From positions 1 to 43,843 of the IMG/VR virus record IMGVR_UViG_3300050821_002432: DNA of 43,843 bases; one strand, written 5' to 3'. The notes under the pieces were generated by a model that saw only the letters and a list, made by a program, of their open reading frames with translations, ran no database searches and was not told the DNA's origin. Origin of the DNA: a virus. The position numbers and the translations under genes are program-made. This document shows positions 1,193 to 36,270 of this stretch, piece after piece (position 1 is the first letter of the stretch; each line of letters opens with the position of its first letter).

Positions 1193-1193
1193 A

Positions 1194-4472: not shown

Positions 4473-5290
4473 AATTTAATCCATTCATCTAAAAACAAAT
4501 CTTTTATATCCAATTTCTTAAGTGATCCACCGAACCAATAGTTGGCTGGAGCAACGGTTATATGACCTTTATGTTTATTGAGATAAGCTGACCACCAACT
4601 AAATGTACTGTTACCTAATATATTGTGATTACACATACTCATAAATGTTAAATCTGTTATATTAGATTCATTCTCTATGAAGTTTACTGATTCTGGAAAT
4701 ATTTCTTTAGCTATGGACATTTTATCGGAAAATACATTAATATTCTGTATATTAGATGAATCATACACAATGGCCAATGCTCTTTCATAGTATTCACTAG
4801 GCACTAATGGAAATATATCAGAACACAGTGATCTATCGCCTCCACCTCTAAAATGAATAGCAATTGAATTAGGTAATATGGATTTATACTTATCATTTAT
4901 GTAATCAATGGTATCAGGATTAAAAGCGAAATAGTCATTGACAAGTTTATCTTTTATGTTCTCAAAGTATTTACCGCTCTGAAAATAACCATTCAATTTT
5001 ACGTTATCTTCATGGGGAATTGGTGAGTATGCAAATGTATAATAAGGACTATCTTGCTCGAATAGATCAGGGTGACGATAATGACCATACTCTTGAGAAT
5101 AACTATTAACGAAATTGAATTTATGAGAAAACAATTTACTTACCTCAATGGGACGGTCTTCATTGGAAATCCAACAATGTCTGGATGCTGATATTTCATA
5201 ATCAACATTTATAGCATCCTTTATAGAAAGACATGTGGCTAATTGAAACAAATTATTTCCTAACTCTCCATGTAATCTACTGGTTATCAT
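4469..5290 (-). CDS. GT11-family fucosyltransferase-like protein, second copy
   Basis: I place the start at ATG 5290, where it forms TAATG with the stop of the FkbM gene upstream. A start 30 bases further up is possible but would add residues absent from the paralogue. The resulting 273 residues match the length of the 1194-2018 protein (274). Shared landmarks are GELGNNLFQLA, HFRGGGDR, QNINVFSD, NFIENE and GNSTFSWWSAYLN. It likely transfers fucose from GDP-fucose. Variation between copies is concentrated in the N-terminal half outside these motifs, which may mean different acceptors. Confidence 0.8.
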   Translation of the reverse strand: MITSRLHGELGNNLFQLATCLSIKDAINVDYEISASRHCWISNEDRPIEVSKLFSHKFNFVNSYSQEYGHYRHPDLFEQDSPYYTFAYSPIPHEDNVKLNGYFQSGKYFENIKDKLVNDYFAFNPDTIDYINDKYKSILPNSIAIHFRGGGDRSLCSDIFPLVPSEYYERALAIVYDSSNIQNINVFSDKMSIAKEIFPESVNFIENESNITDLTFMSMCNHNILGNSTFSWWSAYLNKHKGHITVAPANYWFGGSLKKLDIKDLFLDEWIKL

Positions 5291-5847
5291 TATTTTAGTT
5301 TCCATCCTTCCCAGTCCCATTCATGATTATATGTCTGATCATGTGTAACACTTAGTAAATTTTGACAGGTTTTTCTTTCCTCGTCATGATTTTGTATTAC
5401 TTTATGGAATTGAATTTGAATAAATTTTATATTATCGGCATGTTTACTTGCACAGAGTGTTTTGATTATCTCAAATTCCCCGCCTTCACAATTTAATTCT
5501 AATAAATCTATAGATGTTATGGATTGATCTGAAATAAATTGTGATATATCCATAATATCAATAGATTCCGTTTTTCCTTTTGGACTGAATACCGATGTTC
5601 CTGCTCCGTTTATCTGGATATTTCTTTTTTCTGTTTTATTTCCTAACCCAAAATTATGGACTTTTATCTTGGGATTGTTTTGGTATTTATTGACCAATCC
5701 ATTGTAATAATCCCTTACTGGCTCAAAAATGTAAATATTGCAGTGATATGTGTCAAACATTTCTTGAGAGAATTCCCCAACGAACCCACCAACCTCAAAT
5801 ATTAGAGAATTTTCATTTAATGGGTGATTTTTTCTGTCATCTATCAT
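5290..5847 (-). CDS. FkbM-family SAM-dependent methyltransferase (copy 1)
   Basis: This 185-residue protein has an SAM-binding motif (IFEVGGFVGEFS), an acidic strand end in IFEP, and LLELNCEGGEFEII, the FkbM-type post-motif that normally reads KIDxEGxE. FkbM-family enzymes O-methylate sugars or polyketides. It is rather short for the family and lies directly next to a second FkbM-like gene, with which it overlaps by 4 bases. Sugar methylation of the glycan made by the flanking transferases is the natural inference. Confidence 0.75.
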   Translation of the reverse strand: MIDDRKNHPLNENSLIFEVGGFVGEFSQEMFDTYHCNIYIFEPVRDYYNGLVNKYQNNPKIKVHNFGLGNKTEKRNIQINGAGTSVFSPKGKTESIDIMDISQFISDQSITSIDLLELNCEGGEFEIIKTLCASKHADNIKFIQIQFHKVIQNHDEERKTCQNLLSVTHDQTYNHEWDWEGWKLK

Positions 5848-6494
5848 ATTTTCCTATAAAGTGTGTCGTATTTATATTTTTGCACAATCTCATAGTTTTT
5901 TGATAACATGAATGTGTGAAATTCATCTTCGTGTTTTATGTTGGATTCATATTGATGAAAATTAACAGTTTCGGTAAGTATGAACTTTACAGGCACATCA
6001 CCAATGCCATTGATGATATTTTTTTCATAGGATTGGGCGTCAATATGCATGTAATCAATATGTGTGATGTCATTTTCTTCACAAACTGTGTCCAATCGTT
6101 TCACTGTGACATCATATCCATTCATGTCAAACTTACATCTATCAAATTCAATTTGCTCATCTACAGTCCCGTTTTTTATAATGGGTTTGTTGATAGACCC
6201 TGCCTGTTTATGGTATCTACCCTCGATGGATAAACTTGGATAAAATTTCACCACATCATTTTTATCCCCGAGGGCATAAGGATAAGTATGTATTCCAGCA
6301 TCGATAGCAGAATTTCTATGATTTCTTATGTTTTCAATATCTGGTTCAAATGAATATACTTTGGCTTTTGGAAACCATTGCTTAAAATATATCCCAGTAA
6401 TGAAATCATATGCTCCCACATCAAATAATATTAAATCTGAGTGGTTTATACCTAGGTTACTTATTATAGTTTGTTCATCAGGCTCTTGTAACAT
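5844..6494 (-). CDS. FkbM-family SAM-dependent methyltransferase (copy 2)
   Basis: This 216-residue protein contains LILFDVGAYDFITGIYF (SAM motif I), YSFEPD (motif II) and YMHIDAQSYEKNII, the place where FkbM proteins carry KIDxEG. The Lys and Glu of the usual motif are replaced by His and Gln-Ser, so the active site is somewhat divergent. It is separated by 1 base from the GT2 gene upstream and overlaps copy 1 by ATGA. The pair is not closely similar, so this looks like an old duplication or separate acquisition rather than a recent repeat. Confidence 0.7.
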   Translation of the reverse strand: MLQEPDEQTIISNLGINHSDLILFDVGAYDFITGIYFKQWFPKAKVYSFEPDIENIRNHRNSAIDAGIHTYPYALGDKNDVVKFYPSLSIEGRYHKQAGSINKPIIKNGTVDEQIEFDRCKFDMNGYDVTVKRLDTVCEENDITHIDYMHIDAQSYEKNIINGIGDVPVKFILTETVNFHQYESNIKHEDEFHTFMLSKNYEIVQKYKYDTLYRKI

Positions 6495-6495
6495 G

Positions 6496-7164
6496 TTAGA
6501 TTTTAAATCCTTTATTTAGTTCGTCGCTAAAATCTTTATTATATCTTAGATTGGTGGCGACCTGTTTTTCTATAGTCTTATTATGGATTATTGATAATTC
6601 AAACTCCGATGGAAGTTTGGATGTTATCTTAGCACCCTCTATTTTTTCATGTAGAGGTCTTTCCCATTTTAAATGTGGAAGGTTCTTAAATAATCTAAAT
6701 TGATAATCCGGAAAATTTACAATGTTTCTTCCTTCGTATAAAGATAATTTCCATCCCCAATCCGCTGCATGTTTTTCATTGACTCCAATAAAATCATTTA
6801 TTCGAGGTATTAAAAAACAATCCACACTGGGATTGGACTCAATGATATCCTTTATATTAATCATTAATGTGTCAGTGGGAACTTCGTCATCATCCAATTG
6901 TAATATGTATTTACCAATACACAAGTCTTTTCCAAAATTTTTGTGCATGGAGTAATGGTTATCCAACGCATGTTTATATATAAAGAAGTTCTGTTTTTCT
7001 TTATATGAATCCAATAAATCCAAAGTGGTATCATTATCACTAAAGTCGTCTAATATGACACATTCGTTTCCATCTATGTACTTCTCAATACAATCTAACA
7101 AATCTTTTAATTGATTTGTTCCATTCTTGGTTGTAATTAGATAACTTATGAAAGGTGCATTCAT
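6496..7164 (-). CDS. GT2-family glycosyltransferase
   Basis: The 222-residue protein starts with FISYLITTKNGTNQL, has ILDDFSDNDT (nucleotide-binding Asp) and then GKYILQLDDDEVPT, the DxD that binds metal and sugar nucleotide. It ends in a segment with RPLHEKIE, as in WaaE/KdtX-like GT2 proteins. It should transfer a sugar in the cytoplasm as part of the same glycan pathway. It overlaps the GT4 gene upstream by 4 bases and is 1 base from the FkbM gene downstream. Confidence 0.8.
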   Translation of the reverse strand: MNAPFISYLITTKNGTNQLKDLLDCIEKYIDGNECVILDDFSDNDTTLDLLDSYKEKQNFFIYKHALDNHYSMHKNFGKDLCIGKYILQLDDDEVPTDTLMINIKDIIESNPSVDCFLIPRINDFIGVNEKHAADWGWKLSLYEGRNIVNFPDYQFRLFKNLPHLKWERPLHEKIEGAKITSKLPSEFELSIIHNKTIEKQVATNLRYNKDFSDELNKGFKI

Positions 7165-8498
7165 ACTACACTCTTGGATATATCATTTACTGGTTCCGAT
7201 TTCTTGAGTTTTGGTAACTCTATTTTTTTGAGCCGAGGAAGCACAATTTTTTGTTCTATGGAAAATTCCGGCACATACTTATCGAGTAATCCATGCAAGT
7301 GTTTGTCCATGGCTTGTAAACTAAACTTATCAGCATTTTCCAATCTCAACGCTTCAGCTTTATTAAGAGATTTTTCACTATAATTGTTAAATAAGCTTAT
7401 AATTTTCTCTTCCGCCAAACTGTAAGAAACATAGAACCAATTACCTTCTTTAATTAGCCATTGATTTGCAGAAGAAGGATCAATTTGTTTTACTGTCCCA
7501 TCTAACAATCCAGCATATTTCGCATTTAAGAAATCAATATGTCCACTCCAATTAGGAGCCAATATTGGTTTACCACTCAATGTAGCCAATAACAATGGGT
7601 GACCGAATCCTTCACCATGTGTAAAGCTAATGTGTACTTTGACTTTTTCATGATTAAGTAATGCGTTCATCTCGACATCAGAAAGTTCTCCGTGTAATAG
7701 ATAGACTTTTGGTAATTTACCAGATACACTGTCTTGGATTTCCTTGATTTTCTTTAACATGTCAGTTCTATCCGTGATACTGAAATTTACACCACTAGTT
7801 TTTAAAATCAAACATGGTTGTTTTTCTTTATCTTTAAAGGCATTGAGAAATGTCTTCACAAGATTTCCTATGTCTTTTCTGTCGTTGTATATTCCACCAT
7901 GTGTCCATTGACCTACAAACAAGAAAGCGAAATTCTCGGGGATAGATGACATAACACCTTCTATAGTTTGAATTTTTTCATCGGTCTTTTTATAAATGCT
8001 GGTGTTTGCTCCCCAAAAACATACTTCGATTGGTTTGATACACTTTAATGGTTCTTTTCTTCCATCCTGATGTTGTTTAGTGTAATTGGCATTCTCAAAA
8101 ACTTTTTTAACGAATGTAGAGGTAACTATACCTAAATTCATACGATTCATCCCCTCAATGAATTCCCCACTTGGTTTATCGACCTCGATACCAGCAGTTA
8201 TACCAACATTGTATTTCCCGACTGGTTGAAATTCATTTGGAATGGATATTTGAATAAACAAATCAGGTTGTTTATTCAAAGGTTGTCTCATAAAACAACT
8301 TAGAAGCTTTCTATCTTCGTCTGTGGCATTACTATCCTCGATAGTTTTTGGGGGACATCCTCCCCACTTAGTTGGCGCAATCAATAATTCATATTTATCA
8401 TAACGAAGAATCGATTTGGCAATATCAGTTGATAGATCACCATAACCGCTTCGACTATACACGGGACACTGCATCACACATAAAGGTTTGTTACTCAT
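7161..8498 (-). CDS. GT4-like GT-B glycosyltransferase
   Basis: This 445-residue protein has an N-terminal acceptor domain and a C-terminal donor domain containing FLFVGQWTHGG, VYLLHGELSD and HGEGFGHPLLLATLSGKPI. The first Glu of the GT4 E-x7-E motif is present, but the second is replaced by Leu, which is unusual. The domain resembles the C-terminal half of the 18860-20416 protein (EGFG...GHMDFLG versus GHIDFLN), so the two belong to one subfamily. A charged tail of about 45 residues follows. It overlaps dUTPase and the GT2 gene by 4 bases each. Confidence 0.8.
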   Translation of the reverse strand: MSNKPLCVMQCPVYSRSGYGDLSTDIAKSILRYDKYELLIAPTKWGGCPPKTIEDSNATDEDRKLLSCFMRQPLNKQPDLFIQISIPNEFQPVGKYNVGITAGIEVDKPSGEFIEGMNRMNLGIVTSTFVKKVFENANYTKQHQDGRKEPLKCIKPIEVCFWGANTSIYKKTDEKIQTIEGVMSSIPENFAFLFVGQWTHGGIYNDRKDIGNLVKTFLNAFKDKEKQPCLILKTSGVNFSITDRTDMLKKIKEIQDSVSGKLPKVYLLHGELSDVEMNALLNHEKVKVHISFTHGEGFGHPLLLATLSGKPILAPNWSGHIDFLNAKYAGLLDGTVKQIDPSSANQWLIKEGNWFYVSYSLAEEKIISLFNNYSEKSLNKAEALRLENADKFSLQAMDKHLHGLLDKYVPEFSIEQKIVLPRLKKIELPKLKKSEPVNDISKSVV

Positions 8499-11343: not shown

Positions 11344-11760
11344 TTATTTTATTTTATCAATAACACGGTCAATTACAATTTGGGCACGGTTGGATGGAAG
11401 TTTTGTTAGAAATGATCGGTATACGCCATTGGCGTATGGTGGAGTTAATCCTTTTGATGTATATTGTGCGGCGGTAATGTCCAATATTTCTTTTGAATCG
11501 TTCTGTAACCACCAGTGGGATATCCCACTGGAATCTTTGTTTTGGTAAGGACGATAATTTATATATTTATCACCAAACATCATTGTCCATATGAAATAGA
11601 AAGCTGTTTCAGATGCAACGTAACAATGACCGTACATTGGATTTGTTGTGTTTTCTTTTCTATATGTTGGTTTTAATAAATCTGGGGTAAGACAGTCTTG
11701 AATAACTAACACAAGATCATCCATGGATTTATTAAAAGTCAAGCTTGTCTGGTTTTGCAT
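11344..11760 (-). CDS. Conserved phage protein with possible Cys-His-Asp site
   Basis: The 138-residue protein (ATG 11760; a GTG lies one codon before) has three landmarks in order: GHCYVASETAFYF, GISHWWLQND and EILDITAAQYTSKG. I recognise this arrangement from a family found in many phages and bacteria without a known function. The Cys, His and Asp fall in the order used by papain- and transglutaminase-like enzymes, so a thiol hydrolase fold is a reasonable guess but unproven. Its 5' end overlaps the nuclease gene upstream by 29 bases. Confidence 0.55.
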   Translation of the reverse strand: MQNQTSLTFNKSMDDLVLVIQDCLTPDLLKPTYRKENTTNPMYGHCYVASETAFYFIWTMMFGDKYINYRPYQNKDSSGISHWWLQNDSKEILDITAAQYTSKGLTPPYANGVYRSFLTKLPSNRAQIVIDRVIDKIK

Positions 11761-12640
11761 CACAGTTTACTTTTTTATGTGGGCAATATGTGCAATTTTT
11801 CTTGTTCTTGCCCGGAATTTTTGGGTATTTACCATTTACATTATATTCGCCCTTCACTGTAAAACATTCATTGATGAAATTGGAAAAACTGTTAAGTGTT
11901 TCAGCCACGGCAGCATGAGTATGCGTTGGTCTATATAATTGTATGTGACTTTGTGGAAAATCAACATTCTCATAGAGTTTTCTCTTTAAAATAAAGAACT
12001 CAACTTCGATGTCATTAAGAGGAACACCGAATTTCTTGGAATAGAAAGCCTTATACAACAATATTTGTTCATAGGTGGCAGGGTCTTCCTTCTTACTATC
12101 TCTCCAACCTAGCGTAGATGTTTTAAAATCGTATATCTTGATTTTTCCCGTTGATTTCTCTTTCAATATCAAATCAACGTATGCCACAAACTCCACATTA
12201 TTCCTGAGTTTAGCATCTAGTGGTAATTCAGTACCGATGAATTCATATTTGTTATTTGGAAAATGTTTGATTCTGGTAGATGTATTAAGAAATGCTCTTA
12301 GAATGTCTTCGGAGTTATAAAAGAATTCGGTATATTCATCATCGGTATATGTGAAGTTTTTGTTTTGTTCCTTCGATTTGATAAGTTCTTCGTCAAATTT
12401 CTCTTTAAATAACTTATTTAAGTTAAGAGCATCAGCAACCTCAAATGATTCCTTATACAATTTCTCAATATAGGTTTGTAAGGCATAATGTATAGCTGTC
12501 CCGAAACAAGTATTCAAGCTTGGATCATATATCCGTTTGCCTTCTAAATAATTAAGTCTCCATGCATTAGGACATCGTGAATACATTGCGTATTGACTGA
12601 ATGATACCCTTTTCTTTCTTGTTTCGGATGTTTGTTCCAT
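11732..12640 (-). CDS. PD-(D/E)XK nuclease, Cas4/RecB-like with probable Fe-S cluster
   Basis: The start is ATG 12640, giving 302 residues. The RecB/Cas4 nuclease core is visible: GTAIH (His51), YVDLILK (Asp156), IYDFKTS (Asp171, Lys173) and YEQILLYK. Four cysteines are placed as in Cas4 and AddB: Cys23 near the N-terminus and C-x2-C-x6-C at 283-293. They would hold a 4Fe-4S cluster. Such enzymes act as 5' or 3' exonucleases in recombination or end processing, so a role in phage DNA metabolism is likely. It is transcribed divergently from the exported protein at 12667, only 26 bases away. Confidence 0.85.
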   Translation of the reverse strand: MEQTSETRKKRVSFSQYAMYSRCPNAWRLNYLEGKRIYDPSLNTCFGTAIHYALQTYIEKLYKESFEVADALNLNKLFKEKFDEELIKSKEQNKNFTYTDDEYTEFFYNSEDILRAFLNTSTRIKHFPNNKYEFIGTELPLDAKLRNNVEFVAYVDLILKEKSTGKIKIYDFKTSTLGWRDSKKEDPATYEQILLYKAFYSKKFGVPLNDIEVEFFILKRKLYENVDFPQSHIQLYRPTHTHAAVAETLNSFSNFINECFTVKGEYNVNGKYPKIPGKNKKNCTYCPHKKVNCDAKPDKLDF

Positions 12641-12648
12641 ATTTATAC

Positions 12649-12677
12649 ATACTAACATATATTACCATGAAAATCAA
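12649..12677 (-). promoter_or_regulatory. Possible sigma-70-like promoter for the nuclease gene
   Basis: On the minus strand TTGATT (12677-12672), a 17-base spacer and TAGTAT (12654-12649) lie 8 bases before ATG 12640. The -35 box would sit inside the first codons of the divergent gene. A TATAAATA string just before the ATG is an alternative T4-like late element. Confidence 0.35.
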
Positions 12678-13422
12678 TATATTATATTACCTTATAGTTT
12701 CGTTATCTCTATGCCTTAGTGTACATTCCCAACAATTTGGGTTTATTGATAGTAAAGGAAATCCCAACCTTGAAAATATAATAAACAACTCATTATCTGA
12801 GTCTCCTGTTCTAATCGGTAAGACATACAGTGTCAATCAAAACAATTATAATCTATCTACCAGCAATGATGTGGTGACACTCAAATTGTCATGTGATACC
12901 ACAATCAAATTAAATAATAACACATCTTTAAATTTCGATTCTTTTGATCAATTCACTATCATTACACCTTACCCACAACAAACTCAATATAATGATTTTA
13001 ATTGTAATTTATCATTATTAAATGGTGAAATTGAGATAATTAATGAATCTGTCACCAATGGACTTTATATAAACACTGAATTAGCCTGTATAATCCTTGG
13101 TGATGGTAGATTTGTTATAAAAAGTGACGGACACAGTAGCACATTTATTATAATTCAAGGCAATGCCACTATAATGGATAACATGGGGAAGAAATTATAC
13201 AAAGTCAAGGATAAAGATATTATTACAGTGACACCACGACCAATTTTATCAGGTAAAGCGGAGAATTCCATGAAAAAGCAGAATATTGTGACTACATCCA
13301 TTTTAGATGATATGGATGATGGAGTATTAGTGAATGAATTTAATATTTTGAATGTAGCACAACATCAATACATCTTTATAACAATTGATGGAATGAATAG
13401 GTTTGTTAAACTTAGAAATTAA
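12667..13422 (+). CDS. Exported protein with FecR-like domain
   Basis: I start at ATG 12667 because the next 20 residues form a clear signal peptide (MKINILYYLIVSLSLCLS, then VHS before QQ as likely cleavage site); the frame is open further up but without such a signal. The middle of the 251-residue chain reads LLNGEIEII...ELACIILGDGRFVIKSDG...IIIQGNATI...LYKVKDKDIITV, the beta-strand pattern of FecR domains. Such domains sense or bind at the cell surface. An exported protein is unusual in a phage and points to a job in the host envelope. Its 3' end overlaps the convergent gene by 11 bases. Confidence 0.6.
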   Translation: MKINILYYLIVSLSLCLSVHSQQFGFIDSKGNPNLENIINNSLSESPVLIGKTYSVNQNNYNLSTSNDVVTLKLSCDTTIKLNNNTSLNFDSFDQFTIITPYPQQTQYNDFNCNLSLLNGEIEIINESVTNGLYINTELACIILGDGRFVIKSDGHSSTFIIIQGNATIMDNMGKKLYKVKDKDIITVTPRPILSGKAENSMKKQNIVTTSILDDMDDGVLVNEFNILNVAQHQYIFITIDGMNRFVKLRN

Positions 13423-13693
13423 ACTGTAATTGGTTATCACCATCGTCATCAACGTAATCACTCCATGTCATTCTTAATGATGTTGGATCAATTTTCACAT
13501 ATTGAATGGCGTCATTTCTATGAAAATCTCCAAATGATGGCCCCCACGATTGATGGAATGTGTATTTCCTGCCGTCTTTTACAATATTTATAATAACGGA
13601 AACATTACTACATGCATCACGATAATCAACGTGTTCCGTGTAGTGATTAAGTTTACCGCTTTTACAGAATTTTATAAGTTCTTTTGGACTCAT
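13412..13693 (-). CDS. Hypothetical protein, 93 residues
   Basis: I do not recognise this protein. It begins MSPKELIKFCKSGKL, a short helix, then mixed strands rich in aromatic residues (KYTFHQSWGPSFGDFHRND) and an acidic loop (DYVDDDGD). There is no signal peptide or membrane segment. Its start overlaps the stop of the small coiled-coil gene upstream as ATGA, so the two are probably co-translated. It converges on the exported FecR-like gene, overlapping it by 11 bases. Confidence 0.55.
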   Translation of the reverse strand: MSPKELIKFCKSGKLNHYTEHVDYRDACSNVSVIINIVKDGRKYTFHQSWGPSFGDFHRNDAIQYVKIDPTSLRMTWSDYVDDDGDNQLQFNF

Positions 13694-13866
13694 GGTTGTA
13701 CCGCTGTATTTTGCTCATCAATAATGGCTTTGATCTCACTTTCGATGTCTTTAATTTCTTCGTTGTACGTATCATTAGCCTCTTTCTTCTGTCTCTTGAT
13801 TTCCAAGAGTTGTTCTTGCAATTTATAGGTTTTTTGTTCGGCTTGGGTTCTTGTAAGTGCTGGCAT
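13690..13866 (-). CDS. Small coiled-coil protein, 58 residues
   Basis: The frame runs from ATG 13866 to a TGA that overlaps the next start. The protein is almost wholly helical by composition: MPALTRTQAEQKTYKLQEQ, then LLEIKRQKKE and IKDIESEIKAIIDEQ with leucine or isoleucine at heptad spacing. This predicts a coiled coil. It is divergent from the DNA polymerase gene, 61 bases away. No function can be assigned. Confidence 0.6.
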   Translation of the reverse strand: MPALTRTQAEQKTYKLQEQLLEIKRQKKEANDTYNEEIKDIESEIKAIIDEQNTAVQP

Positions 13867-13891
13867 AAGTTTATTATTAATATATTATATC

Positions 13892-13920
13892 TTTACAAAA
13901 CGTGAGTTTTGGTTTACAAT
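13892..13920 (+). promoter_or_regulatory. Sigma-70-like promoter for DNA polymerase
   Basis: TTTACA (13892-13897), a 17-base spacer and TACAAT (13915-13920) are followed by only 7 bases before ATG 13928. No Shine-Dalgarno sequence is present. The predicted start of transcription falls on the start codon. Confidence 0.55.
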
Positions 13921-13927
13921 ATATAGT

Positions 13928-16537
13928 ATGTATAAATCGATTTATTACGATAAACTTAAAGGTCTTTTGCATCTTTGGGATGATGAGCTTGGATATGTCT
14001 GTAGAAAATACAGAAACTATGCCTTCATGAAAAGTGAATTCGGAAAATTCCAAACACTACATGGTGAAAAAGTTGATAAGATATATGATTTTAAATATGG
14101 TGACTACAATACATACGAATCCGATCTTACGGCTGAGACAAAAATTCTTGTAGATTTATATAGGGATCAAGATGATCCTCCAAAAAATTTAAAAACGATA
14201 ATAATCGATATCGAAACAGACACCACAGGAGGAAATCCAGATGTCAACATATTCAATAAAGAGATTACGGCTTTTTCTTATTATGAGAGGATGACCAATT
14301 TATATAAGTGTTTACTTTTAGATAAAGATGGTCAAGTTGATGGATATACAAAAGATAATACGGAAGTAATTACTTTTTCCGATGAAGAATCGCTGTTGAA
14401 TGGTATATTGACCGTTTTTGAACAAATACGGCCAGATATCGTAACAGGTTGGAACATTTGTTATAACGGATATTATGGTGATGGTGGAGGATTCGACATA
14501 AGATACATTTATGGTAGAATATGTAAGATACTTGGGGTTAATCAAGCAAATCGTTTGTCTGAAATCGGAAAATGTTATGTAAAAGAGCGAGATAAAACGG
14601 TTGTTATTGCGGGTGTAAACACATTAGACTATTTGTTATTATATAAGAAGTTTCGATTTGAACCTAGACAGAATTATACATTGGATCACATTGGCACAGT
14701 TGAATTTGGTCAAGGTAAAATTAAATACGAGGGATCATTGCATAAATTATACAAAGAAGATATAAAAAAGTTCATTGAATATAACCTTTGTGACGTTGAG
14801 ATCGTAAAAAAATTGGATGATCAGTTTAAATTCTTGGATTTGGCCGTTGGTGTAACTTCCATTGGGCATGTTCCATTTGAATGGTTTCATATGTCATCCA
14901 GATTCATTGAAGGGGCTATTATAACATATATGCGCAGAAATGGTAACATTGTTGCCCCAAATAAACCCATTGCAATTGATGATGAAGTAGAAGAACAAGC
15001 AATGGCTCATTATAACAAACTAATGAAAGAAAAAGGTGAGGAAGAGGAAGATGATGACGACAGTTTCGTTGGTGCGTATGTAAAAAATCCTGTTCCACAA
15101 TTATATTCATGGGTTTTCTCTGTTGATATAAATTCCCTATATCCGTCCACCATTAGGACACTAAACATTAGTCCTGAAACGTATATTGGGAGAATAGCTG
15201 ACTGGAGTGTGGAAAATTATGTCGGCAATAAACTCACCGAAGTAAAAATAGCTGGCGAGACTTATTCAGTAGACGAATTTAAAAATTTCATTAATACTGA
15301 ACAGATAAATGTTTCATCCATTGGTGCTATGTATGACGGAAAGAAAGCGGGAATCATACCAACAATATTGGATATGTGGTTTACTCAGCGTATTGAGTTC
15401 CAAGACTTAATGAAAAAGTATGGCAAAGAGGGAAACAAAGAAAAAGAGGAATATTATTCTCGCCGACAACACGTTCAGAAGATTTTCTTGAATTCTGTAT
15501 ATGGTATCTTGGGATTAAACAGTAGCAGATTCTATAGTAAGGATAATGCCGAATCAACAACTCTTACGGGGCAGACAATCATCAAAACTTCCGAAAAAAT
15601 AGTGATTGAATACTTTAAGGAGAAATATAACAAGTATAACAAGACTATTGATAATGTTGATAACGTTGTTCAGTATATTGATACGGACAGTTTGTATGTA
15701 TCCGTTGCCGCCCTTGGTGCCTTGGAAGGTATTAAGGAAGAGGATATGAAAGAATACACCAAAAAGGTTTGTAGCGAGATTGTGGAACGATTAAATGCTT
15801 TTTATCCTACAATAACCAAGAAAATGTTTAATTCAGATAATAACAAGATCAAAATCGCCGCAGACACAATAAATTCCACGGCATTATGGAAAAAGAAGAA
15901 AGCGTATGCTCTAAATCAAGTATATGACATGAGTAAGAATAAGGATGTCAGTAAAATGAAAGTTGTTGGATTGAGTAGCGTAAGATCAGACTTTCCACTC
16001 AAGTTTAAAACTTTCTATGAACAATTTTTGAAGGATATATTAAATAGACAAGGTTTAACTAATATAAATAAGAAGGTTCTTGAACTATGTGAGAATTTAA
16101 AGAATTGTACTATCGTGGAGTTGGCAAAGAATACATCTGTCAAGTTTTTTAGTGAGAAAAAGGGAATAAACTTCGATCCAAAGAAACGACAGAAGTTTGT
16201 TATTGAGGATGGAGCTACGGCACAATGTAAGGCAGCTTTGATGTATAATGATCTATTGGTTAAATTCAAATTGAACACCAAGGTTGAACCAATCTACTCA
16301 GGACAGAAAATTAAGTATGTATATTTGGCTGATAATCCATATGGAATTGATGCGTTGGCTTTTAAAAACGATGGAACCGATCCAAAAGAGATAATGGACA
16401 TAATCAATGAATATTGTGATAAAAACAGGATGTATACGTCTGTATTAGAGAATAAGATAGAGGATTTTTATAGAATATTGGGTTGGCAAATGCCATCCTT
16501 GGTGGAAGCCAAAGCTAGTGAGTTTTTTGAATTTTAA
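13928..16537 (+). CDS. 43: Family B DNA polymerase with 3'-5' exonuclease (T4 gp43-like)
   Basis: The 869-residue protein has all expected motifs. The exonuclease domain shows DIE at 94-96 (Exo I), GWNICYN...GFDIRYI at 174-193 (Exo II) and YNLCD near 285 (Exo III). The polymerase domain shows DINSLYPS at 400-407 (motif A), KIFLNSVYG at 518-526 (motif B), YIDTDSLYV at 583-591 (motif C) and a later KKKKAYAL. It is close in length to T4 gp43 (898) and should be the replicative polymerase working with the clamp at 17064. An acidic stretch (EEEEDDDD, about 371-378) precedes motif A. No intein or intron interruption is seen. Confidence 0.97.
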   Translation: MYKSIYYDKLKGLLHLWDDELGYVCRKYRNYAFMKSEFGKFQTLHGEKVDKIYDFKYGDYNTYESDLTAETKILVDLYRDQDDPPKNLKTIIIDIETDTTGGNPDVNIFNKEITAFSYYERMTNLYKCLLLDKDGQVDGYTKDNTEVITFSDEESLLNGILTVFEQIRPDIVTGWNICYNGYYGDGGGFDIRYIYGRICKILGVNQANRLSEIGKCYVKERDKTVVIAGVNTLDYLLLYKKFRFEPRQNYTLDHIGTVEFGQGKIKYEGSLHKLYKEDIKKFIEYNLCDVEIVKKLDDQFKFLDLAVGVTSIGHVPFEWFHMSSRFIEGAIITYMRRNGNIVAPNKPIAIDDEVEEQAMAHYNKLMKEKGEEEEDDDDSFVGAYVKNPVPQLYSWVFSVDINSLYPSTIRTLNISPETYIGRIADWSVENYVGNKLTEVKIAGETYSVDEFKNFINTEQINVSSIGAMYDGKKAGIIPTILDMWFTQRIEFQDLMKKYGKEGNKEKEEYYSRRQHVQKIFLNSVYGILGLNSSRFYSKDNAESTTLTGQTIIKTSEKIVIEYFKEKYNKYNKTIDNVDNVVQYIDTDSLYVSVAALGALEGIKEEDMKEYTKKVCSEIVERLNAFYPTITKKMFNSDNNKIKIAADTINSTALWKKKKAYALNQVYDMSKNKDVSKMKVVGLSSVRSDFPLKFKTFYEQFLKDILNRQGLTNINKKVLELCENLKNCTIVELAKNTSVKFFSEKKGINFDPKKRQKFVIEDGATAQCKAALMYNDLLVKFKLNTKVEPIYSGQKIKYVYLADNPYGIDALAFKNDGTDPKEIMDIINEYCDKNRMYTSVLENKIEDFYRILGWQMPSLVEAKASEFFEF

Positions 16538-17915: not shown

Positions 17916-18857
17916 ATGAACGATTTTATCGAATTTGAAACAGTACCAGAGAAAGAACATTTTATATTGGCCGAAAAATATCGCCCAACAAAAATTGAAG
18001 ATTATATTGGTAATGATCAGTTTAAAAATGAATTGAAACGCATTTTGGAGACGGGTCAATTACCACATTTGATGTTACACGGCAGTTCTCCCGGAACAGG
18101 TAAGACTTCAGCGGCTAAATTGATAGTATCAAATATAAAATGTGATCATTTATATATTAATGCATCGGACACCAACAGCGTGGATGATATTAGACTTAAA
18201 GTTAAGTCGTTTGCATCTACTATAGGATTCAGTGATCTTAAAGTTATCATTTTAGACGAAAGTGATTTCTTAACGCCGCAAGCACAGGGAGCATTGCGTA
18301 ATATCATCGAAACGTTCAGTGCCACCACCAGATTCATCTTTACATGTAACTATCTTGAAAAAATTACATCACCGATCCTATCTCGATGCCAAGTATTTGA
18401 AATTATACCCCCAAGTAAGAAAGAAATCGCTGTACACATCAAAAATATTCTAGAAAAGGAAACTATCAAGTTCGTGCCAGAAGATTTGGGTTATATAGTT
18501 AACACTTACTATCCAGATATTAGAAAGATGCTTAATTTTGCACAACAGAGCACAGTAAACAAAGTATTGACTATATACAAGAAAGATAATGTTGTATCCG
18601 ATTTAAAAAACAAAATCATAGAGTTGATTAAGAAGTGTGCCTTTATGGAGATTAGACAACTCATAGCTGATAATAATGTTAGATGCTATGAAGAGCTATA
18701 TCAATGTTTATATGATAAAGTGGGAGAATATGCCCCGAAGAATCCAGCTATTGTTATATTAATAATAGCTGAATATATGTATCAAAGCAATTTGGTAGTT
18801 AACAAGGAAATAACGTTCGCTGCGTGTATAGCAAAGATTATAGAAGAATTGAAATAA
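17916..18857 (+). CDS. 44: Clamp loader ATPase subunit (T4 gp44-like)
   Basis: The 313-residue AAA+ protein has EKYRPTKIEDYIG near the start (typical of clamp loaders), Walker A GSSPGTGKT at 56-64, Walker B VIILDESDFL at 110-119 and the arginine-finger motif SRC at 156-158. It would form the ATPase ring that opens and loads the gp45-like clamp. T4 pairs it with gp62 encoded directly downstream; here a glycosyltransferase gene follows 2 bases later and no gp62-like gene is recognisable in the window. The gene probably has a leaderless transcript. Confidence 0.95.
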   Translation: MNDFIEFETVPEKEHFILAEKYRPTKIEDYIGNDQFKNELKRILETGQLPHLMLHGSSPGTGKTSAAKLIVSNIKCDHLYINASDTNSVDDIRLKVKSFASTIGFSDLKVIILDESDFLTPQAQGALRNIIETFSATTRFIFTCNYLEKITSPILSRCQVFEIIPPSKKEIAVHIKNILEKETIKFVPEDLGYIVNTYYPDIRKMLNFAQQSTVNKVLTIYKKDNVVSDLKNKIIELIKKCAFMEIRQLIADNNVRCYEELYQCLYDKVGEYAPKNPAIVILIIAEYMYQSNLVVNKEITFAACIAKIIEELK

Positions 18858-18859
18858 CT

Positions 18860-20416
18860 ATGAGCCAAGATTATAAAAAAGACTTCATATTATCCAAATA
18901 TTGGGAATCATTAGAAACAAATTCGGATAATGGACTGCAATATAGGTGGACTAACAATAGTTCTACTATATACATAACAAATAGTACAAATTATACATTC
19001 TTGAAGGTGCGGTTGTATAACGGGGTAGATGCTTTTAATAAACGTATATTGAATATACTAGTTGATGGTATATTGTACAAGTCTTATATCTTCACAGAGA
19101 CAGCGGAATACATAGATGTCAAAATTGACATTAATGGAAAAAAATCTGTCACATTCTCAACCGATGATAGTTTCTGTCCGTCTAAATTAGATAAGCAGTC
19201 TAGGGACGTGCGTGTTTTAGGATTTAAAATATATGCTATCGTTATTGACAGTGACAATCACAAAGATGTATTAATACCTATTAGAGATTTGACAACGGAA
19301 AGCGAAGAAGAATTTTTCGTTGATGTTGATAATTATAGTTATAATGTATCTAGAATTGCACTAAAAAATGATAGAGACACCATCATGTATATAGGACAAT
19401 ATGGAACATCTGGATATGCCACTGCTGCCAAGGGATATGTATATAGATATTTCATCAATAATTACGATATCAAATGGGTTCCTTTGAGATTTGATGAAAC
19501 TGAGTTAAGTAAGGATTGTCCATATAACTTAATTGCTGAATCGACCATAAATAAGAATTATGCTGAGTATGACACATTCATATATCATACCACTCCTGAT
19601 TTATGGGAGTCTTTGAATCATCAGTATAGCAATATCAACAAAAACAAGAAAATATTTGGTTATGCCGCATGGGAAACCAGCAAGTTGCCACCAAAATGGA
19701 CGGAGTACATTAATGACAATGTTAATGAAGTGTGGTGTCCATCAAGTTACAATTATCATGTGTTTAAAGAGTCTGGAGTCACAATACCTATAAGCGTGGT
19801 GCCTCATGTATTCTTACAGAAGCCATTAATTGAAAAGAAGAACATTCAATTGATTAATATCAATGGACAACCCATAACATCAGTAGAAGGGGTATACACA
19901 TTCTATACTATAGGAGAATTTAATAATAGAAAGGGTATAGATGATATCATTAAAGTGTTTTGTAAGACATTTACTAAAAATGACAAAGTCAGACTGTTGA
20001 TTAAAACTCACTATAAGAATTATACACCGAATAACAAAAAATACTGCTTGGATAAGATAAGTGACCTCGTGAAAGATTATACCGATCTTCCTGAGATTCA
20101 TTACTTGATTGACAACGCTAGTGAACGAGATATTTTGGCCTTACATAGTTTAGGCGACTGTTATGTTAGTCTAACTAAATCTGAAGGGTTTGGTATACCT
20201 ATATTTGATGCGTTCAATTACAGAAAACCAATAATTGTTACGGGGTATGGTGGTCATATGGATTTCCTTGGTAAAACCTATAAAGGGTTGGTAGATTTTA
20301 AGATGGATTATATTAAAGACATGGAGAGTTTTTCCACTAATTATAGTAATGACACAGTTTGGGCATATCCGAATTTGGATACGGCTGGAGAATTAATGAA
20401 AAGTCATATAAAATAA
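18860..20416 (+). CDS. Beta-sandwich domain fused to GT4-like glycosyltransferase
   Basis: The start at ATG 18860 follows the clamp loader stop by 2 bases and gives 518 residues. Residues 25-130 form a beta-rich domain (GLQYRWTNN ... ILVDG ... SRDVRVLGFKIY) that also occurs in the middle of the 22041-23936 protein. Residues from about 175 make a GT-B enzyme with YAAWETSKLPPKW, FYTIGEFNNRKGIDD and KSEGFGIPIFDAF, where the second acid of E-x7-E is Asp. The N-terminal module may bind carbohydrate. The gene opens a second glycan cassette placed directly behind replication genes. Confidence 0.75.
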   Translation: MSQDYKKDFILSKYWESLETNSDNGLQYRWTNNSSTIYITNSTNYTFLKVRLYNGVDAFNKRILNILVDGILYKSYIFTETAEYIDVKIDINGKKSVTFSTDDSFCPSKLDKQSRDVRVLGFKIYAIVIDSDNHKDVLIPIRDLTTESEEEFFVDVDNYSYNVSRIALKNDRDTIMYIGQYGTSGYATAAKGYVYRYFINNYDIKWVPLRFDETELSKDCPYNLIAESTINKNYAEYDTFIYHTTPDLWESLNHQYSNINKNKKIFGYAAWETSKLPPKWTEYINDNVNEVWCPSSYNYHVFKESGVTIPISVVPHVFLQKPLIEKKNIQLININGQPITSVEGVYTFYTIGEFNNRKGIDDIIKVFCKTFTKNDKVRLLIKTHYKNYTPNNKKYCLDKISDLVKDYTDLPEIHYLIDNASERDILALHSLGDCYVSLTKSEGFGIPIFDAFNYRKPIIVTGYGGHMDFLGKTYKGLVDFKMDYIKDMESFSTNYSNDTVWAYPNLDTAGELMKSHIK

Positions 20417-21072
20417 TGTTTTATTATCACACATTTAAGGATTTAAATATACAAGGTATTTATGATCATGAACCTCTCTTGCAATATTATCATTTCCCCA
20501 ATGATGAATTACTTAAGGGGAAAAAAGTATTAGATGTGGGATGTGCCTCCGGATTCTTTTCAAAATATTTTGCCGAGAGAGGTGCCAATGTAGTTGCCAT
20601 TGATATTAATACTTCTGTTACTAATATGGTGAAGAATCAGACTAAATTGGAAATGGATATAGTGGAAGCAGATGTATTCAGTATTGATTCAATTGATACA
20701 TTTGATATTGTATTTTGTGGATCATTATTGATGCATGTAATTTATCCAATGGAATTACTGAAGATCATAAATAAAGCTTTGAAGCCTAATGGATTATTCA
20801 TATTATGTTCTGGTGGAATCGATTCGGTTGATCCCGTAATAAGAACCGAAAGATATTTAGGTAGGCAAAAATCGGCAATAGAGAAAGATGTTAATTCCGC
20901 GAATGAATCGTTGTGGTGGTTGTCTAAATCAGCGGGAGAAATAATGTTAAAGAACGTTGGATTTAATAATGTTAAGTATATGGATAGTTTCACCCTGACC
21001 TCAACGGAATTTGGTGTGAAAATAGGACATAACTTTTCAGCTTTACATCATGTTTGGCATTCTACGAAATAA
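20416..21072 (+). CDS. Class I methyltransferase, CmoB-like (Methyltransf_9 type)
   Basis: The start ATG 20416 overlaps the previous stop as TAATG, giving 218 residues. The start FYYHTFKDLNIQGIYDHEP followed by LKGKKVLDVGCASGFFSKYF and ANVVAIDI is the layout of CmoB-like SAM enzymes, which in bacteria modify tRNA wobble uridine. In glycan clusters, proteins of this kind are thought to methylate sugars. The context here (glycosyltransferases, radical SAM, sulfotransferase) favours the glycan role. No membrane segment is present. Confidence 0.75.
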   Translation: MFYYHTFKDLNIQGIYDHEPLLQYYHFPNDELLKGKKVLDVGCASGFFSKYFAERGANVVAIDINTSVTNMVKNQTKLEMDIVEADVFSIDSIDTFDIVFCGSLLMHVIYPMELLKIINKALKPNGLFILCSGGIDSVDPVIRTERYLGRQKSAIEKDVNSANESLWWLSKSAGEIMLKNVGFNNVKYMDSFTLTSTEFGVKIGHNFSALHHVWHSTK

Positions 21073-21077
21073 AAATT

Positions 21078-22031
21078 ATGAAAAATGGATTATATTGTGA
21101 TGGTGGTAAACGGTGGTTCAGTATTGGTAGTGAGGGCAGAGTATATACGTGTAATTCTCTCATCTACCACCCAAATGCATTTCTTGGAAATATAATAACT
21201 GAAGACATTAAACTAAGAACAGAAGAATGGAATAGATGTCCCGTTCAAAAGTGTTATCAGATTTGTGATAGGCATTGGTCTAAGAAACAAGTATATGAGG
21301 ATGATAAACTAATTGATAGTCAAGATGTAGTAAATCCTGACCCATATAAAGGTATAAAGAATCCAGCATCTATTCTTTTTGCGCCCACATGGAAATGTAA
21401 TTATTCTTGTGTGTATTGTGTATTACCTACCAAGAAAGTTTATCCGAATATTCCAGATGCATGTGATACGTTTCCTTATCAAACATGGATTGATGCATTT
21501 AAGAGATTTTTTACAACTAATGAGATTGGGGGAGGAATATGGCACACCAATGGTGGTGAACCATTGTTCTATGATGGTATTGAGCACTTATTTAAGTTTT
21601 TCAAGGAGCAAAACTTTACTATTGCTTTAACGAGCAATATTACCGCAGATGTTTACAAGAAAATTGTGGCAGTTGCTCCTCCATCGTCTTTCGGTATCAT
21701 AAATTGTAGTTTGCATCCATCTGATAAGAATTTTAGGTTGGATCAATTTAAAAGCAGAGTTCATTTATTAAAAGTTCTAGGATATCCGATATCTGTCAAT
21801 TTTGTTGGTCACCCCGATCAAATCATGCTTGCACCTGATTATGCTGAATGGTGTAAGAGTATCGGTGTTGGATTCTCATTAATTCCATTATTGGGAAACA
21901 ATGATGGTATTTTCTTTAAAACGATCAATGATTATCCAGAGGCATTGCGAAACATAATAAACAAATACTCAACTCCTGAATTAAAAGATGATAATAGATT
22001 TATCGATGGGGCAAGAGTGAACACTAAATGA
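21078..22031 (+). CDS. Radical SAM enzyme with N-terminal SPASM-like Cys cluster
   Basis: I start at ATG 21078, 5 bases after the previous stop; an earlier in-frame ATG overlaps that gene. The 317-residue protein has the radical SAM signature CNYSCVYC (Cys107, 111, 114) and GGEPLFY further on. Before it lies a SPASM-like region: Cys7, WFSIGSEGRVYTC (Cys25), FLGNI, then Cys54, Cys59 and Cys63. In known SPASM enzymes this domain follows the radical SAM barrel; here it precedes it. Such enzymes modify peptides or sugars by radical chemistry. The glycan context suggests a sugar substrate, but a peptide is possible. Confidence 0.85.
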   Translation: MKNGLYCDGGKRWFSIGSEGRVYTCNSLIYHPNAFLGNIITEDIKLRTEEWNRCPVQKCYQICDRHWSKKQVYEDDKLIDSQDVVNPDPYKGIKNPASILFAPTWKCNYSCVYCVLPTKKVYPNIPDACDTFPYQTWIDAFKRFFTTNEIGGGIWHTNGGEPLFYDGIEHLFKFFKEQNFTIALTSNITADVYKKIVAVAPPSSFGIINCSLHPSDKNFRLDQFKSRVHLLKVLGYPISVNFVGHPDQIMLAPDYAEWCKSIGVGFSLIPLLGNNDGIFFKTINDYPEALRNIINKYSTPELKDDNRFIDGARVNTK

Positions 22032-22040
22032 TAAGATACC

Positions 22041-23936
22041 ATGAAGAAGTTTCCGAGGACAATTTGTATATCATTGAAGGACGATATCAAACGGCGAGAG
22101 TTCATAACAACTCAAACCAAAAAATTGGGCATAGATATCACTTTTATAGACGCCGTGGACGGAATCCGCCTAAAAATGGCGGATAATCCATGTGGATTGA
22201 AAATAGGTGAGTTTGGCTGTGCTTTATCGCATTATTGTACATTAGCATCCATAGATTTACTTCCCGATGAAGAATTCTTGATTTTGGAAGATGATGCTAT
22301 TTTTTGTGAGGATTTTTTAAATAAATTTGAAAAGTTCTATGATAACTTACCAAGTGATTGGGAAATGGCATATTTGGGTTGGTTACAATGGGCCAAAGTA
22401 GTTGATGTCATCAATATCAATGAATATGTTGGTAAAATGAAATCACTTGAATTAACCCACCCATTTAAGTTCATGCTATCTAATCATGCCTACATGATTA
22501 AAAAACCTACAGCCAAAATTCTAAAAGAAGCTTTATATCCATTAAATATGGCACTTGATGTAGCTTTCATGCGGAAGATTTTACCGCATATAAAATATTA
22601 TATATCCACATCATTTCTTGTCAGTCAAGCATCGTTTGAATATGGTCATGGTAGGAACACTAAGTTCAGTGGTTGGGAATCAAAGACTTGGATTGAAAGA
22701 AACCCCGAAATTGACTCTACAGAAATAACCACTGGATATGGATTCTTTCAATTGGAGTCATTCGGGAAAACTCATTGGAAATGGACGGGTAATGAGTTTA
22801 AATTTTATATTACCGATGGAATTGCTAATATAGAAGTCGATTTTATTTCCCCCATAGCTAATGTTTTAACATTGGAGACTGATATCTCAAAGAAGGAATA
22901 TAACATTGTTTCGGGCGAGAATACAATACGTTTTGAACCACATGGACTATATCCTATTATCGGTAGATTGAAAAACGTTTATATCCCTGCCAAGAATGAA
23001 GATAAATCAAATGATATAAGGGAATTGGGTATAAGAATATTAAGAATGCGTACGGAATCAAATGGATCACTTAAAACATTTGAAATGAATACTATTCAAT
23101 GTTATCTTCCGGAAATAGTGTTAGAAAAGGAAGTAAACAAGATAAAGAATATAGGTGTGTTGTTTTTACCAAGAAGCGGTAGTCATTGGATAGCATATCA
23201 TCTTAATAATTTTAAAAATATATATTCATTAGATGGAGAAATGTTTAATAGTGATACTTGCTTTATCGACAAAGAATTGTATGAAAAATTGAAACCATAT
23301 TACAGTATTCCTAAGAATTTCTGTTTTGAAAGTCTAAACATACTTGCCGCTGAGTTATTGAAGGATAGAACGCGTTTTCTTACCATAGTAAAAACATTCT
23401 TACCGCAGGATAAAATGTTTGCCTTTAAATTGGGTTATCCTCATGTTAATATCGATGACAAAGTTTATAGGACACTTGATTATGTTGTTATATCATATAG
23501 ACGCAATGTGTTGGAACAATGGATCAGCTATAAAAATGCTGAAATAACAAACAAGTGGTGTTGCTCCACAGAATCTGATAAGTATCCAGTATCCAAGATA
23601 CAATGGAATTCTGAGGAGTTTTTAAAGTTCAGGGAAGAGATATATAATAAAACCAAGATTTACAAGAGAATAACAAAGAATGTACCGCATGTATTCATGG
23701 CGTATGAGGAATGGAACGTCGAAAATATCACGGTAGCGGAGCAAAATACAATATTGTATAATAAACTTAAAGAAATCCATATCGATTGTGGTGATATCAT
23801 TGACGATACATTTAAGAATAAGTTCATAAAACAATTAACGTATAAGACCTATGAAGAATGCTTCACTAATTATGATGATTTTGTCAATTTCGCTAACAAG
23901 GAATTGTTTATGTTAGAAATAGCTGATATCAGGTAA
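22041..23936 (+). CDS. Three-domain protein: GT25 + beta-sandwich + sulfotransferase
   Basis: The 631-residue chain has three parts. Residues 1-205 are GT25-like (ICISLKDDIKRREF, FIDAVDG, GCALSH at 59-64, LEDDAIF). Residues 230-340 repeat the beta-sandwich module of the 18860 protein (WKWTGNEFKFYI, SNDIRELGIRI). Residues from about 368 are sulfotransferase-like: VLFLPRSGSHWIAYHL matches the 5'-phosphosulfate loop for PAPS, and YRRNVLEQWISY the 3'-phosphate site. One polypeptide may thus add a sugar and sulfate it. It ends the second glycan cassette. Confidence 0.8.
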   Translation: MKKFPRTICISLKDDIKRREFITTQTKKLGIDITFIDAVDGIRLKMADNPCGLKIGEFGCALSHYCTLASIDLLPDEEFLILEDDAIFCEDFLNKFEKFYDNLPSDWEMAYLGWLQWAKVVDVININEYVGKMKSLELTHPFKFMLSNHAYMIKKPTAKILKEALYPLNMALDVAFMRKILPHIKYYISTSFLVSQASFEYGHGRNTKFSGWESKTWIERNPEIDSTEITTGYGFFQLESFGKTHWKWTGNEFKFYITDGIANIEVDFISPIANVLTLETDISKKEYNIVSGENTIRFEPHGLYPIIGRLKNVYIPAKNEDKSNDIRELGIRILRMRTESNGSLKTFEMNTIQCYLPEIVLEKEVNKIKNIGVLFLPRSGSHWIAYHLNNFKNIYSLDGEMFNSDTCFIDKELYEKLKPYYSIPKNFCFESLNILAAELLKDRTRFLTIVKTFLPQDKMFAFKLGYPHVNIDDKVYRTLDYVVISYRRNVLEQWISYKNAEITNKWCCSTESDKYPVSKIQWNSEEFLKFREEIYNKTKIYKRITKNVPHVFMAYEEWNVENITVAEQNTILYNKLKEIHIDCGDIIDDTFKNKFIKQLTYKTYEECFTNYDDFVNFANKELFMLEIADIR

Positions 23937-35358: not shown

Positions 35359-35386
35359 ATTATAATATAAATATATATAATGTCAA
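35359..35386 (-). promoter_or_regulatory. Sigma-70-like promoter for the 59-residue gene operon
   Basis: On the minus strand TTGACA (35386-35381), 16 bases and TATAAT (35364-35359) lie 37 bases upstream of ATG 35321. This gives a leader that carries the ribosome-binding site. It overlaps the start region of the divergent GIY-YIG gene. Confidence 0.6.
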
Positions 35387-35436
35387 GATTTTTATTTTTT
35401 TATGACGTTTTATTCTATGACATACTATTTATTAAT

Positions 35437-36270
35437 ATGGGAAATGATATAAATATATGGGAAGAAAAAAACTTAACCGAACCAGAGAAGAATTGCTTGT
35501 CGCACAACGTTTGCGAGCAAAACGATATTATACACGTCACAAAAATAGACTTAATAAAGAATCGCTGCGAAAATATTGGGAAAATAAGTGGAATTTACGC
35601 AATAGTGAATAAATTAAATAATAAATATTACATTGGATCATCTAAAAATATTAAACGTCGGTGGGATCGACATATGTCTGAATTAAAGATGTATAAACAT
35701 GCTAATTTGAAATTACAAAATGCTTACAATAAATATGGGAGAAAATCCTTTGTTTGTGTTATTTTGAAATTGGTAAATCCAAATATTAAATCGTTGTTGA
35801 CAGAAGAGCAGAGATATTTAGATATGGCATTTAAACATGAAGAATTGGTTTATAATATATGCCCTATGGCACAAATTCCACCGAATTGGTCAAGAAAAAA
35901 ACATAAAGAGGAAACTAAGATAAAAATGAGGTTGCACAATCACAACTTAGGAAAACCACTTTCCAAAAAAACTAAAAAACTAATTAGTAAAAATAGAACA
36001 GGAAAATTTCATACGGAAGAATTTAAAAACAAAAGATCGATAAAATATACGGGGGTGAATAATCCTAATTATGGTAATCATAAAATAGCTGGAAAAAATC
36101 ACCCTCTATTTGACAATAAAAAATATGACTTTTATAATAAAAAATTAAATACACAAGAATTGTGTACTAGATATGAACTAAGAATTAAATATAATTTGGA
36201 TAAAGATGCGATATCGAAACTTATATATGGTGTATACAAATCCACCAAAGGTTGGGTTTTAAACAAATAA
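35437..36270 (+). CDS. GIY-YIG homing endonuclease (SegA/I-TevI-like) with NUMOD-like repeats
   Basis: This rightward gene is alone among leftward genes, a sign of a mobile insertion. The nuclease domain reads SGIYAIVNKLNNKYYIGSS, then KRRWDRHMSELK, NKYGRKSFV and LLTEEQRYLD, with the catalytic Arg and Glu. Downstream, short DNA-binding repeats follow (SKKTKKLISKNRTGKFHTEEFKNK, NPNYGNH), as in NUMOD3 modules. I place the start at ATG 35437, although an ATG at 35380 is also in frame. The first 50 residues look unlike protein of this family, because a different frame (35457-35612) carries the familiar sequence. The end overlaps the convergent kinase gene by 12 bases. Confidence 0.8.
   Translation: MGNDINIWEEKNLTEPEKNCLSHNVCEQNDIIHVTKIDLIKNRCENIGKISGIYAIVNKLNNKYYIGSSKNIKRRWDRHMSELKMYKHANLKLQNAYNKYGRKSFVCVILKLVNPNIKSLLTEEQRYLDMAFKHEELVYNICPMAQIPPNWSRKKHKEETKIKMRLHNHNLGKPLSKKTKKLISKNRTGKFHTEEFKNKRSIKYTGVNNPNYGNHKIAGKNHPLFDNKKYDFYNKKLNTQELCTRYELRIKYNLDKDAISKLIYGVYKSTKGWVLNK
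35457..35612 (+). CDS. Overlapping alternative-frame ORF, 51 residues
   Basis: In another frame than the GIY-YIG gene, ATG 35457 opens a 51-residue ORF that starts MGRKKLNRTREELLVAQRLR and continues with RYYTRHKNRLNKESLRKYWE. It is basic and helical and looks like sequences at the front of phage homing-endonuclease proteins. It stops inside the GIY motif. Either it is a small separate gene, or it is the true N-terminus and the GIY-YIG gene is reached by a +1 shift. Confidence 0.4.
   Translation: MGRKKLNRTREELLVAQRLRAKRYYTRHKNRLNKESLRKYWENKWNLRNSE

Follow-up and report, generated by a model that had tools for sequence, protein, structure and literature searches.

Auxiliary-cluster domains of radical SAM enzymes, SPASM and Twitch, are described in reviews as C-terminal extensions (PMC9012708). 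The SPASM domain, which has two auxiliary clusters, is defined by the pattern CX9-15GX4C-gap-CX2CX5CX3C-gap-C (PMC6231123). The usual order, a barrel followed by a C-terminal domain, is seen in BlsE (PDB 7vob) and BtrN (PDB 4m7t), both of which have sugar-like small-molecule substrates (general knowledge and PMC9012708). Two papers (PMC7029224, PMC5332604) report radical SAM cassettes in variable regions of SAR11 phages and a marine T4-like phage genome with 12 radical SAM genes. In the NCBIfam family NF033640 ('N_Twi_rSAM', twitch domain-containing radical SAM protein) Twitch precedes the barrel. We know of no functional characterisation of this family.

The window considered here is the whole virus record IMGVR_UViG_3300050821_002432, 43,843 nucleotides, a contig of a T4-like phage. 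The product of 21078-22031 (plus strand, ATG at 21078, stop at 22029-22031) is the only radical SAM protein found in it. This candidate permuted Twitch enzyme has 317 amino acids, the cluster motif CNYSCVYC (residues 107-114; 21396-21419, plus strand) and the SAM-binding GGE motif NGGEPL (residues 158-163; 21549-21566, plus strand). The CxxxCxxC and GGE motifs, set in a partial (beta/alpha)6 barrel, are those that characterise the radical SAM superfamily. As the original prediction had it, C7, C25, C54, C59 and C63, together with FSIGSEGRVYTC and LGNI (36-39), lie before CNYSCVYC, and the translated frame has all of them at exactly these positions; CDRHW (63-67) lies there as well. The Pfam matches, to SPASM at 7-45 (E 0.024) and to Radical_SAM at 106-190 (E 8e-4), stay under the curated cut-offs. 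Two orthologues pass these cut-offs, L276 for SPASM (22.7 > 21.5 bits, at 7-52) and L278 for Radical_SAM (34.7 > 29.5 bits, at 106-213).

The same protein with the same domain order is encoded in six further virus contigs (L275, L276, L277, L278, L279 and L280; L275 is on the same contig as L222, and L278 on the same contig as L223). These orthologues are 47-65% identical to the window protein (48-66% in the multiple alignment). C7, C25, C54, C59, C63, CDRHW, CNYxCxYC and GGEPL are invariant in all seven proteins. The orthologues surfaced only in pattern- and alignment-based searches; with a single sequence as the query, phages, viral contigs and genome contigs gave no relative.

The N-terminal iron-sulphur domain (residues 1-72; 21078-21293, plus strand; pLDDT about 85-93) is, as judged from sequence comparison, Twitch-like and homologous to the Twitch domains of phage enzymes. 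It scores 21.5 bits against a Twitch profile built from such enzymes. This score was reached by none of 2000 full shuffles of the 72 residues, by none of 1999 shuffles with cysteines fixed, and by one of 2000 with cysteines and glycines fixed. Alignment by hhalign with the C-terminal Twitch domains of phage enzymes gave a probability of 94.8 and E 4.8e-8, where the E-values of this and the other profile and hhalign comparisons refer to very small sets and the evidence lies in the contrast between profiles. The domain had been called SPASM-like. A cysteine domain is indeed present, and the first half of the SPASM pattern fits (C7-x12-G20-x4-C25). However, the remainder is absent: there is only C54-x4-C59-x3-C63, with neither CX2CX5C nor a seventh cysteine. 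What is found instead of the full seven-cysteine SPASM is a one-cluster, Twitch-like set, that is, a cysteine on each side of a beta-hairpin and two further cysteines (C7, strands 13-16 and 21-23, C25, C54, C59). The domain stands ahead of the barrel, and not at the C-terminus as in the usual architecture.

The closest relatives are phage enzymes of the usual order (L219 1651-4823, L177, L242), with about 300-400 amino acids and with a barrel and a Twitch homologous to those of the window protein. Their Twitch pattern, CxxGxxxxxIxxxGxvxxxxC...LGNI...CxxxxC, is common to the window protein. However, in these enzymes, which often form tandem arrays, the barrel comes first and Twitch last, and the window order is the reverse. 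One profile was built from 137 phage N_Twi proteins, another from 42 phage proteins with the barrel before Twitch. With the usual-order profile the window protein reaches 60.5 bits, with the N_Twi profile 6.5 bits. The match to the former is in swapped order: profile positions 254-315 align with residues 6-71, and positions 17-174 with residues 98-262. The partial barrel with its C-terminal tail (residues 95-317; 21360-22028, plus strand) aligns with the cores of the phage C-Twitch enzymes with hhalign probability 99.7, score 134 and, again for a very small set, E 1.4e-24. Thus the window protein is very probably a circular permutation of a usual-order, one-cluster Twitch phage enzyme, and the description of it as a permuted enzyme stands, the cluster domain being swapped to the front relative to the nearest kin. 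The final cysteines are mostly C-x4-C-x1-C in usual-order kin and C-x4-C-x3-C in the window protein, so ligation of the cluster may differ.

Support from an independently curated profile comes from NF038073 (STM4011 family), also of the usual order, since its pieces match in swapped order. Profile positions 200-251 match the window protein at 3-59, and positions 11-146 match the L278 orthologue at 105-238. The scores range within 22-42 bits (window protein 22.5, L278 41.5) and are under the cut-off of 200. NF038073 is the best-scoring named bacterial family for both L275 and L278, with both domains matched.

In the AlphaFold2 model (protein without iron; pLDDT 89.7, pTM 0.88) the chain starts with a Twitch-like part (strands 4-7, 13-16, 21-23 and 35-38, helix 62-67), followed by a predicted beta-hairpin that links it to the barrel (residues 70-82; 21285-21323, plus strand; E70-74 and E77-82 by DSSP on the model). 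The model supports the view that both domains fold and pack together. A model lacking a second cluster site had been named as evidence against the original prediction; here the N-terminal domain folds Twitch-like, iron being no part of the model. The alignment for the model consisted of proteins of the family itself and of usual-order relatives split into barrel and Twitch pieces. As this alignment presupposed the permutation, the model is not an independent proof of it. The barrel of the window protein compares with BlsE, NifB and PFL-AE at VIA Z scores of 12.8-13.7. The model of the usual-order relative L177 (pLDDT 90.2) aligns with BlsE over 11-301 (Z 18.9, rmsd 3.5, 264 residues), and the usual-order relative reaches Z 14.0 with BtrN; neither BlsE nor BtrN is closely related in sequence to the window protein. 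The window model aligns with BlsE only over 94-317 (Z 12.8, rmsd 3.9, 205 residues), as expected of a sequential aligner if Twitch is at the other end. The Foldseek and VIA lists contain no solved chain aligned across the whole window model in its order. No conclusion follows from this absence, as a permutation is beyond the reach of sequential aligners.

The permutation probably arose in a tandem gene array. In such an array the Twitch of one gene is already just before the barrel of the next, and fusion with truncation could yield a permuted protein. Three C-Twitch genes stand head to tail in L219, and three usual-order genes are in tandem in L119. Indeed, the pattern for permuted proteins matched L219 because the Twitch of one gene stands at the searched distance before the next barrel. 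Among the loci fetched from uncultivated viral contigs there are 107 barrel-then-Twitch frames, a count biased by the search patterns and including contigs that are near-copies. Two other groups have the same kind of Twitch before the barrel. One consists of L226/L273 and L270/L271 (320-345 amino acids). The other consists of ten proteins of 418-494 amino acids, with an insert in Twitch, encoded downstream of a usual-order gene. In the barrel tree without N_Twi, the long group and L226 form a supported clade (98/95), and three changes of order are needed. However, a constraint placing all permuted proteins in one clade is not rejected (p-AU 0.092), and the number of origins is thus between one and three.

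One possibility is that the window protein is a hybrid of two adjacent array genes, with Twitch taken from the upstream gene and joined to the barrel of the next, whose own Twitch was lost. Tandem arrays set a Twitch just ahead of the next barrel, and the nearest usual-order relatives of the two domains differ, L219 for Twitch and other proteins for the barrel, which makes a two-gene hybrid as possible as a permutation within one gene. On the other hand, the window family has a very long branch, and the barrel trees do not settle its nearest usual-order relative, so the difference may be noise. In the permuted L270, moreover, both domains are nearest to the same usual-order protein, L242/L243. 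The hybrid is a real possibility, although we lean against it.

The permuted gene lies in an island adjoining a T4-like replication block, which is marked by a gp44-like clamp loader gene (17916-18857, plus strand; phrog_168, E 6e-74; 52% identical in L009 and L010). The window also carries a family B DNA polymerase and related T4-like genes. The clamp loader gene is followed by a glycosyltransferase gene (18860-20416, plus strand) of GT1 type (PF00534, E 4e-11) with an N-terminal domain; residues 1-180 have no Pfam match. A homologue with 47% identity is at the same place in L222. Next comes a gene for a SAM-dependent methyltransferase (20416-21072, plus strand; Methyltransf_11 in Pfam, E 5e-18), directly upstream of the radical SAM gene. 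The gene on the other side (22041-23936, plus strand) encodes a 631-residue protein with a glycosyltransferase family 25 domain (PF01755, E 1.6e-17, at 7-174) and further domains without a Pfam match. Genes for a GDP-mannose dehydratase and an epimerase, as well as fucosyltransferase-type genes, are also present in the window.

The window and L222 share the gene order clamp loader, glycosyltransferase, methyltransferase, radical SAM, with two extra small ORFs in L222. Homologues of the methyltransferase, 61% identical in L222/L275 and 45% in the contig of L277, are encoded near or right before the radical SAM gene. Thus the methyltransferase family is just upstream in three of the seven contigs; it was not found in the other four, which may be fragments. 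L277 has a quite different genome context; here the methyltransferase gene runs into the radical SAM start, with a DXD glycosyltransferase encoded downstream. In L276, the radical SAM gene starts where the gene for a fused 739-residue glycosyltransferase ends. L278-L280 have, behind the radical SAM gene and on the other strand, a gene that by eye resembles a glycosyltransferase, with no library match.

Several other features of these loci were observed. A recurring domain of about 110 residues ('RWT...IxI...DxRxLGxxI') is part of the glycosyltransferase chain in the window (18860-19300), is encoded by a separate adjoining gene in L222 (2702-3067) and occurs in L009 within 11738-14875; the window copy has no Pfam match and the L222 copy no PHROG match. 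In the product of 22041-23936, the C-terminal part from about residue 378, 'LFLPRSGSHWIAYHL', after a middle domain, reads like a sulfotransferase P-loop. Elsewhere in the window, 38864-39973 (minus strand) encodes one protein in which a GNAT acetyltransferase domain comes after an ABC-type ATPase domain, and 35380-36270 contains a gene resembling GIY-YIG homing endonucleases, with a NUMOD3 motif. In L222, a 122-residue ORF between the methyltransferase and radical SAM genes (1628-1996, minus strand) has several cysteines as well as 'IGDLNIDSFESIWKDE' and is reminiscent of a free-standing Twitch; it has no convincing family match.

The best explanation as a whole, with a probability of about 0.55, is a phage family of permuted Twitch radical SAM enzymes acting beside glycan synthesis, with a sugar chemistry that we infer from the context. 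CNYSCVYC would bind the SAM-cleaving [4Fe-4S] cluster, and C7, C25, C54 and C59 would bind one auxiliary [4Fe-4S] cluster, while C63 could either stand in as a ligand or act in catalysis. The 5'-deoxyadenosyl radical may take hydrogen from a sugar, whether free, bound to a nucleotide or already transferred, with the auxiliary cluster as a possible electron acceptor, as proposed for BtrN. The product would be a keto- or epimerised sugar, then used by the partner methyltransferase and glycosyltransferases. Oxidation or epimerisation of a sugar is suggested by the glycan genes nearby, by the lack of room for a precursor peptide and by the precedent of BtrN, a known Twitch enzyme (PMC9012708). The chances of a sugar-type substrate are about even, and an oxidation specifically like that of BtrN is rather doubtful.

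The substrates of related Twitch enzymes include peptides (SkfB) and GTP (MoaA), which counts against the sugar reading. The window protein might modify a peptide or protein, as a RiPP-like maturase or as a modifier of phage or host proteins. Several of the solved SPASM/Twitch enzymes nearest in fold modify peptides (SkfB, SuiB, anSME, PqqE), and there are weak profile matches to peptide maturases. However, Pfam finds no precursor-binding (peptide-recognition) domain in the window protein or its orthologues, and the neighbours are glycan genes. The intergenic gaps around the radical SAM gene are 2, -4, 5, 9 and 41 bases, which leaves no room for a precursor gene. Thus neither of the features expected of a RiPP maturase, a precursor gene nearby and a peptide-recognition domain, is seen at the window locus. 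No equivalent of the cysteine-containing ORF of L222 is present at the corresponding place in the window. A peptide or protein substrate therefore appears unlikely. The original description of a glycan-gene setting with no obvious precursor peptide is borne out. For the sugar reading, a more extended scenario would be that Twitch radical SAM enzymes were permuted more than once in phage arrays and that one outcome was a virus-only family with a so far undescribed radical modification of a sugar made by the phage; we consider this combination speculative and, as a whole, unlikely.

Twitch ahead of the barrel is not new by itself. NF033640 already has this order and is abundant in uncultivated phages, so the novelty claimed for the order cannot be maintained. 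Wide presence of the order in a well-characterised family had been named as counter-evidence: the order is indeed widespread in NF033640, but that family is, to our knowledge, functionally uncharacterised, and the window protein falls outside it. A motif scan of uncultivated viral contigs found many NF033640-type proteins, mostly of 380-470 amino acids, with C-x17-CC-...-C-x2-C before CNxxCxxC; one phage member tested scored 331 bits, where the NF033640 cut-off is 170.

Membership of the window protein in NF033640 was the first idea and was dropped after profile tests. If it were a divergent N_Twi member, nothing would be permuted. The domain order is the same, residues 58-195 show a weak in-order match to NF033640 profile positions 68-220 (15.4 bits, also 13.1 bits), and one tree joins the protein with N_Twi, with support 49 and flagged as long branches meeting. 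However, these scores are far under the cut-off reached by the real phage member. The N_Twi Twitch profile gives -0.0 bits on the window Twitch (hhalign probability 1.2), and the barrel is nearer to the C-Twitch enzymes (hhalign score 134 vs 53). The cysteine patterns differ as well: NF033640 has CC after the hairpin and C-x2-C, whereas the window family has the single C25 and C-x4-C-x3-C. The barrel motif of NF033640 is mostly CNLKCRxC or CNFKCRxC, in proteins of about 380-470 amino acids, whereas the window protein has CNYSCVYC in 317. Membership is thus improbable.

The permuted proteins make up a small family, known to date from virus contigs alone, where it stands beside glycan-synthesis genes of T4-like and other phages. 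Searches of about 85,000 prokaryote genomes, of named phages and of plasmids, with limited reach for distant relatives, gave no relative of it. Near matches in named phages (Campylobacter phages, HTVC008M, a PqqE-like gene in an Acinetobacter record) turned out to be ordinary radical SAM proteins, not permuted where read. Relatives of the clamp loader have no such gene in the DNA around the match; of 43 whole records searched with Pfam, 10 have radical SAM frames, and the one frame read is not permuted. That the gene is decayed or an assembly chimera, as could be thought when the first loci scanned showed only one such protein, is practically dismissed, as independent contigs, six of them, have the same order, the cysteines are invariant, the neighbours are conserved, and both domains are under purifying selection (pN 0.14-0.30 vs pS 0.65-0.86), synonymous change being close to saturation among family members and amino-acid-changing differences being far fewer. 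Since the same rearranged protein adjoins sugar-transfer genes in other phage contigs, we consider it a real enzyme family. A permuted family with clear usual-order relatives is apparently undescribed; open-licence papers yielded nothing on circular permutation of radical SAM enzymes with SPASM or on an N-terminal SPASM. Because such relatives exist, the placement of the auxiliary cluster relative to the active site could be tested by comparing matched pairs.

Uncultivated phages thus appear to be rich in radical SAM enzymes that are still uncharacterised, and three domain layouts sometimes occur side by side in one array, within islands that build or alter glycans. L119 and L226 contain long tandem arrays in which Twitch-first and C-Twitch types are mixed. 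In L113, six radical SAM genes in a row (798-8388) have Twitch-like cysteines first and are followed by methyltransferase- and carbamoyltransferase-like genes. In L270, a usual-order gene right after the permuted one seems to be split, with the barrel and Twitch in overlapping frames (3895-4578 and 4571-4855), which may reflect a frameshift or two separate polypeptides.
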